Source of the DNA: Thiospirochaeta perfilievii
GTDB lineage: Bacteria; Spirochaetota; Spirochaetia; DSM-2461
Length of the DNA: 64,000 bases
Direction: 5' to 3'
Assembly: GCF_008329945.1 (NCBI RefSeq)
Contig: NZ_CP035807.1
Coordinates: 2,790,001 to 2,854,000 of the forward strand
Positions 11,577 through 12,676 of the stretch are shown here, piece by piece. Made by a program: the position numbers and the translations under genes. The notes under the pieces were generated by a model. The model saw only the letters and a program-made list of their open reading frames with translations, ran no database searches and was not told where the DNA came from. Position 1 is the first letter of the stretch. Each line of letters begins with the position of its first letter.

Positions 11577-11707
11577 AAGAAATATTATATAATTAATATT
11601 ACCCATGTAAACGTTATTTGGTATTATATAAAAAATAATTTTTTTTTATGTACAAATTTAATATAGTTGTGGTATTGTTTGTATATTAAATAGGCAAGGA
11701 GATTAAA

Positions 11708-11893
11708 ATGGCTGAAAAAGAGGCATTGGTTGTTGCATCAAAAATTAAAAACTATATTAAAGAAAATGGTGATCTTAAGTGTTCTGCAAAGGTTATTGAC
11801 GCGTTATCTGATAAGATTAGAGAAATTTTAGATAAAGCTATTGTTGATGCTAAAAATGATAAGCGTAAAACTGTTCAAGAGAGAGATATTTAG
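11708..11893 (+). CDS. Bacterial histone-fold protein (HBb-like)
   Basis: A 61-residue, lysine-rich protein that reads as one histone fold. Residues 6-20 form a short first helix. Residues 27-52 (VIDALSDKIREILDKAIVDA and following) form the long central helix. The C-terminus RKTVQERDI matches the conserved RKTV-x-x-RD loop that in histones pairs with the opposing subunit and DNA. The size matches the bacterial histones described in Bdellovibrio (Bd0055) and Leptospira, which bind DNA and can be abundant. A perfect AAGGAGAT ribosome-binding site lies 7 nt before the ATG and a strong terminator follows, so it is a monocistronic, probably well-expressed gene. Assignment is by motif; a structure prediction would settle it. 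Confidence 0.82.
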   Translation: MAEKEALVVASKIKNYIKENGDLKCSAKVIDALSDKIREILDKAIVDAKNDKRKTVQERDI

Positions 11894-11913: not shown

Positions 11914-11944
11914 AAAAAAATCCGGTTTAAACCGGATTTTTTTT
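11914..11944. terminator. Palindromic bidirectional terminator
   Basis: The palindrome TCCGGTTTAAACCGGA (11921-11936) is flanked by seven A on the left and eight T on the right, so it can terminate the histone gene on the plus strand and the pentapeptide-repeat gene on the minus strand. Confidence 0.88.
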
Positions 11945-11968: not shown

Positions 11969-12676
11969 CTATTCCTTAATATTTATCTCTTTCTCATTAG
12001 TAAATATATTTCTATTAAGCCTATCCTTAGCCCTTAGATTTTCCTTTAACTGGGAACTCTTTTTTTCGTGTTCACTTTGTATTCTAGAAACTTTTCTTAG
12101 TGTCTCTTCCTGTTTAGCTATTTTCCAAGGGGATAACTTCTTTTTTTCTTCTGTTGTTAACTCTCTTCTCTTAGGTTTAGGTTTTATTTTAGTGGTTTTA
12201 CTCTTAATAACACCCTTCATATTGGTTTTATTTAGACTTGCTAATTTAAGGTTAGTATTAAGAATATTAGCATTTTCTAAATTAGCACCATCAAGGTTTA
12301 CACTAGTAAGGTCAGACTCTTTAAAAATTGCCCCTACTGCTTCACACTCCTTTAAACTCGCTTCCTTTAGGTAAGAGTTAGATATAACTGCTTTAGTTAG
12401 GTTACAGTGGTCTAGGGTAGCCTTCATAAGTTTTGTTCTCTCTAGGTTTGCCCTTGTTAGATTGCACCCTTCAAGATTAGCACCTACTAGATTAGCACCC
12501 TTTAAATTTATCTCTTTTAGATTTAAATAACTAAGATTTATTCCGGTCAGATTGGCTACAAAGTACTTTCCACTTGATTTTACAAAGTTATTCCATTGTG
12601 GAATATCATTCTCTCTTATTGCTTTTAATAACAATTTTAACTGTCTTTCATTACCAATGAAATTTTCCTGTTCCAA
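11969..12676 (-). CDS. Pentapeptide-repeat protein
   Basis: A 235-residue cytosolic protein with a run of A(D/N)LXX-type repeats at about residues 48-160 (for example NLKGANLVGANLEGCNL), which should fold as a right-handed quadrilateral beta-helix of roughly 20 repeats. The C-terminal 75 residues are charged, lysine/glutamate-rich and probably helical or disordered (KPKRRELTTEEKKKLSPWKIA). Some pentapeptide-repeat proteins mimic DNA and protect gyrase, but that cannot be inferred here. It stands alone between the histone terminator and the tkt operon. Confidence 0.85.
   Translation of the reverse strand: MEQENFIGNERQLKLLLKAIRENDIPQWNNFVKSSGKYFVANLTGINLSYLNLKEINLKGANLVGANLEGCNLTRANLERTKLMKATLDHCNLTKAVISNSYLKEASLKECEAVGAIFKESDLTSVNLDGANLENANILNTNLKLASLNKTNMKGVIKSKTTKIKPKPKRRELTTEEKKKLSPWKIAKQEETLRKVSRIQSEHEKKSSQLKENLRAKDRLNRNIFTNEKEINIKE

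Follow-up and report, generated by a model that had tools for sequence, protein, structure and literature searches.

A predicted HBb-type bacterial dimer histone encoded together with HU in the genome of Thiospirochaeta perfilievii

The window analysed here is a stretch of 64,000 nucleotides from the genome of Thiospirochaeta perfilievii (NZ_CP035807.1, positions 2,790,001 to 2,854,000 of the forward strand), whose strain P is a cultured sulfur-metabolising environmental spirochaete (PMC7380536). The features recognised at the locus are listed below with their positions in the window.

11658 to 11687, + strand: weak candidate for a sigma-70-like promoter (TTAATA-18-TATATT, 9/12), no better than many chance matches
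11696 to 11701, + strand: ribosome-binding site AAGGAG, ending 6 nt before the ATG and kept in same-genus relatives
11708 to 11893, + strand: gene for a 61-residue histone, placed in the bacterial dimer (HBb-type) alpha-3 family by its open reading frame, homology, conservation, tree and predicted fold
11735 to 11770, + strand: codons of helix alpha-1 in the model (residues 10-21), with S11, K12, K14 and K18 at the HBb contacts S9, K10, K12 and K16
11780 to 11782, + strand: codon of Cys25 (loop L1), the residue matching T23, a DNA contact in HBb
11786 to 11857, + strand: codons of helix alpha-2 in the model (residues 27-50)
11864 to 11887, + strand: codons of loop L2 and the single-turn alpha-3 (R53-K54-T55-V56-Q-E-R59-D60), from the model and conservation, with the RD clamp and DNA contacts
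11914 to 11943, + strand: intrinsic terminator, a perfect 15-nt inverted repeat ending in a T-run

The frame starts with ATG, runs through 61 codons, the length given in the first-pass annotation, and stops at TAG, and the ribosome-binding site, the separate terminator and the RKTV-x-x-RD loop that it had reported were all found in place. The inverted repeat of the terminator begins 20 nt past the stop codon and was the only terminator-like site between 11400 and 12200, where 0.2 would be expected from shuffled sequences. Its stem (AATCCGG/CCGGATT) is kept in the two same-genus relatives, L002 and L009, with differing loops, and the Rfam matches around it were all far below the gathering scores and were taken as chance. 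The promoter match carries little weight, as such matches are common in the AT-rich DNA of this region. Upstream of the gene (11648-11690), the blocks TGTACAA-TTT and TATTGTTT-TAT are common to both same-genus relatives and possibly represent a promoter or operator. The histone gene is solitary, lying between a divergent gene for an Lnb-type membrane protein and a convergent gene for a pentapeptide-repeat protein. The latter (11969-12676, - strand) encodes a protein with a lysine-rich C-terminal tail and adjoins the histone gene in 7 of 18 loci; its matches to the MfpA/Qnr-type DNA mimics were weak, and all were far below the cut-offs.

The search of all PDB sequences detected HBb (Bd0055) of Bdellovibrio bacteriovorus (PDB 8CMP, 8FVX, 9EZZ and 9F0E) as the top match with an E-value of 2e-10, followed by HLp of Leptospira perolatii (PDB 9QT0-9QT2; E 2e-8) and then archaeal HTkC (E 3e-4). 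HBb has the same length, a single histone fold and a one-turn alpha-3, and shares 51% identity (29/57), while the identity to HLp in the phmmer alignment was 41% (24/59). In Pfam, the only match of the 61-residue protein was to a histone family (PF00808, CBFD_NFYB_HMF), a near miss at E 3.8e-4 and 21.1 bits against the gathering cut-off of 21.4, and the HU/IHF profile PF00216 was not matched; the NCBIfam archaeal histone profile gave E 9e-6, again below its cut-off. These scores are expected of a short divergent member. Taken by themselves, they would also suit a chance reading frame or a helical protein other than a histone, a reading that is refuted and has practically no likelihood, since the frame is conserved in 60+ distinct relatives with low dN/dS, and solved histones were matched by both sequence and fold. 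In a tree of 66 sequences, HBb and the T. perfilievii protein (the dimer type) were separated from HLp (the tetrameric face-to-face, or FtF, type) by a branch with 100/100 support, and finer branching remained mostly unresolved because of the small number of columns (63). As judged from its sequence, the protein is thus a bacterial dimer histone. The first-pass annotation had likened it to the histones of both Bdellovibrio and Leptospira; the former comparison agreed with the HBb type, whereas the latter was loose, as the Leptospira protein lies across the 100/100 branch.

The AlphaFold2 monomer model built on a diverse alignment (A5) had a pLDDT of 87.6 and consisted of helices at residues 10-21 and 27-50 and a one-turn helix of three residues at 58-60, in agreement with the truncated alpha-3 (3-4 residues) that marks the bacterial dimer histones. 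An earlier model from 17 close relatives (A1; pLDDT 71) had shown a single long helix at residues 27-60, missing loop L2, and was replaced by the A5 model. The top five chains in Foldseek were all HBb, with rmsd of 0.8-0.9 A and TM-scores of 0.85-0.89, by which the histone fold proposed from the sequence was borne out for the predicted monomer. The comparison with Bd0055 and HMfB that had been suggested was also made on this monomer, and VIA-align scored HBb at Z 8.8-9.0, HLp at 8.0-8.2 and the nucleosomal archaeal histones HMfA/HMfB at 5.8-6.1. The archaeal proteins have the histone fold and the RKTxxxD motif in common with the T. perfilievii protein, but differ in their longer alpha-2 and alpha-3, in hypernucleosome stacking in archaea, and in an identity of 26-27%.

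The residues of the T. perfilievii histone are numbered as those of HBb plus 2. The residues of HBb that touch DNA in structures or simulations are T8, S9, K10, K12, K16, N22, T23, S24, A25, K52, T53 and R57 (PMC11317129). Sequence alignment indicated that S11, K12, K14, K18, S26, A27, K54, T55 and R59 are retained among them, whereas T8, N22 and T23 are changed to A10, K24 and C25; outside this set, G50 is changed to K52, and the C-terminus stops at the residue matching I59 without the last residues of HBb. The clamp D49-R51-D58 of HBb corresponds to D51-R53-D60, and the RKTxxxD-type motif (R53, K54, T55 and D60) has the same spacing as R51, K52, T53 and D58 in HBb. Among the 58 distinct dimer-type rows, K54, T55 and D60 were invariant and R53 was present in 57, and the positions of the alpha-1 lysines K12, K14 and K18 (family positions 11, 13 and 17) were Lys in 58, 58 and 56 rows, respectively. 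At pH 7, the protein carries a low net charge of +1.5.

Of 46 distinct proteins in the Spirochaetia histone clade, 45 share Cys25, whereas the remaining dimer-type histones in the phylum carry Thr at this position. A Cys is also frequent at position 41 (C39 in HBb) in the host's family, where the host's own genus has Leu. It is a long shot, but the fixed Cys at the backbone contact of HBb T23 might make the DNA packing by this histone, and its sharing of labour with HU, responsive to redox state or metals; if true, this would concern sulfur-metabolising or anaerobic hosts.

HLp belongs to the same phylum and the alpha-3 family and has a similar monomer fold, as shown by its identity and Z-scores above, so that the T. 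perfilievii protein could be imagined as a tetrameric FtF histone wrapping about 60 bp like HLp. We consider this highly improbable and rejected the FtF identity. R48 and N52, the residues of the dimer-dimer interface of the FtF tetramer (PMC11390915), occur in HLp, and each of the six FtF rows from the phylum has R and N there, whereas both are Asp (D47 and D51) in the T. perfilievii histone. Moreover, K54 and R59 are as in HBb while HLp has Thr at both positions, and the tree splits the two types at 100/100.

By homology with HBb, we infer that the T. perfilievii histone forms a dimer that binds and bends DNA. Two chains would pair through alpha-2, and each dimer would meet the DNA backbone at the minor grooves via the lysines of alpha-1 and via loops L1 and L2, with S11, K12, K14, K18, S26, K54, T55 and R59 as the predicted contact residues. 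The dimer would then bend DNA like HBb, with no tetramer wrapping. The binding mode of HBb itself is disputed between an end-on sheath (PMC10627809) and bending (PMC11317129). The sheath, in which end-on dimers coat the DNA and leave it unbent, is the original proposal for Bd0055 and was observed in crystals (PMC10627809). The residues involved in that structure are mostly conserved here; we nevertheless regard this mode as improbable, since the solution and simulation data on HBb favour bending (PMC11317129).

The histone was found in 25 of the 26 genomes of the host's family, the lone exception being 77% complete, in 64 of the 395 genomes sampled from the class Spirochaetia, and in 47 of 393 from the phylum, where the matches include the separate FtF group of other lineages. 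The fetched relatives are almost all metagenome assemblies. Against the same-genus relative L002, dN was 0.05 and dS was 1.08 (NG86), giving a dN/dS of about 0.05, and dS values against the other relatives were saturated or unreliable; these substitution rates indicate strong purifying selection on the gene. The upstream neighbours, a M16C/PreP-like protease and the Lnb-type protein, are common to 10 of 18 loci including that of T. perfilievii (9/17 fetched relatives), which argues for vertical inheritance at least across much of the host's family. When plasmids were searched with the histone protein, the sole match was an archaeal DUF1931 protein (40% identity), so that there was no sign of plasmid spread. 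The PHROGs scan gave nothing significant, and no FtF relatives were found in the scan of viral contigs. Six contigs classed as viral (L083, L085, L086, L087, L088 and L105) encode single-domain HBb-like histones, mostly with RKTVMxxD, whereas the category of phage histones described in the literature has no RxTxxxD motif (PMC11390915). These may be genuine phage genes, or the contigs may be bacterial DNA that was misclassified.

It had been pointed out that the window contains no HU gene, which is true, but the hint of a host lacking HU did not hold. The T. perfilievii genome has one PF00216 match (G000:C1:530848-531111), by its sequence a typical HU protein. PF00216 matches were also detected in 25/26 genomes of the host's family and in 39/39 histone-positive genomes of the class outside this family; the match in genome G506 was weaker (1e-10) and lies inside a longer frame. 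In four loci, L060 (G507:C10), L068 (G513:C101), L072 (G482:C282) and L078 (G504:C290), the histone and HU genes are only about 5.6-5.9 kb apart, a closeness not shared by the T. perfilievii genome. HBb of Bdellovibrio likewise coexists with HU and IHF (PMC11390915), while Leptospira is reported to lack HU (PMC12701072). With HU present in the host and nearly all histone-positive relatives, the histone probably acts alongside HU, and not in its place as in Leptospira.

The codon adaptation index (CAI), with ribosomal-protein genes as the reference and codon usage drawn from sampled 20-kb stretches, was 0.763 for the histone gene, a value to be read with its small sample of 61 codons in mind, compared with 0.739 for the HU gene, a mean of 0.70 for ribosomal-protein genes, and a background of 0.585 (sd 0.058, 222 ORFs). 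Only 2.2% of the background pieces of 61 codons reached the value of the histone. This codon usage, resembling that of ribosomal-protein genes, suggests high expression, and the histone is probably abundant; together with AAGGAG and the gene's own terminator, it agreed with the strong expression signs noted by the first-pass annotation. The protein might instead play a minor or condition-specific part in DNA binding, most of the packing being left to HU. The co-occurrence of HU in nearly all histone-positive genomes fits this possibility, as does the lack of the histone in most of the class, by which it has been dispensable over evolution. It appears rather unlikely, however, in view of a codon usage that matches or exceeds that of ribosomal proteins and HU, the strong ribosome-binding site and terminator, the retention in 25/26 genomes of the host's family, and the strong purifying selection. 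We therefore favour, with a probability of about 0.8, an HBb/Bd0055-type alpha-3 dimer histone that serves as an abundant, sequence-nonspecific nucleoid protein beside HU in T. perfilievii.

It had been expected that a histone here would extend the known set to this lineage, but bacterial dimer histones of Spirochaetia have already been published. The 2024 survey by Schwab and colleagues placed bacterial dimers in the class Spirochaetia of the Spirochaetota (PMC11390915), and the 2024 paper on HBb reported that the DNA-binding residues are conserved in Spirochaetota (PMC11317129). No literature linking Thiospirochaeta with histones was found in a search of the main texts of papers. As HBb-type histones were already reported in the class, the T. 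perfilievii protein is a well-supported further member of the family from a cultured host, and no new principle is shown by it. T. perfilievii is a free-living spirochaete whereas Bdellovibrio is a predator, and a contrast also appears within the phylum, Leptospira having an FtF histone without HU and T. perfilievii a dimer-type histone with HU. The presence of both genes in the finished genome of a cultured environmental spirochaete makes it testable how a histone and HU share a bacterial nucleoid.
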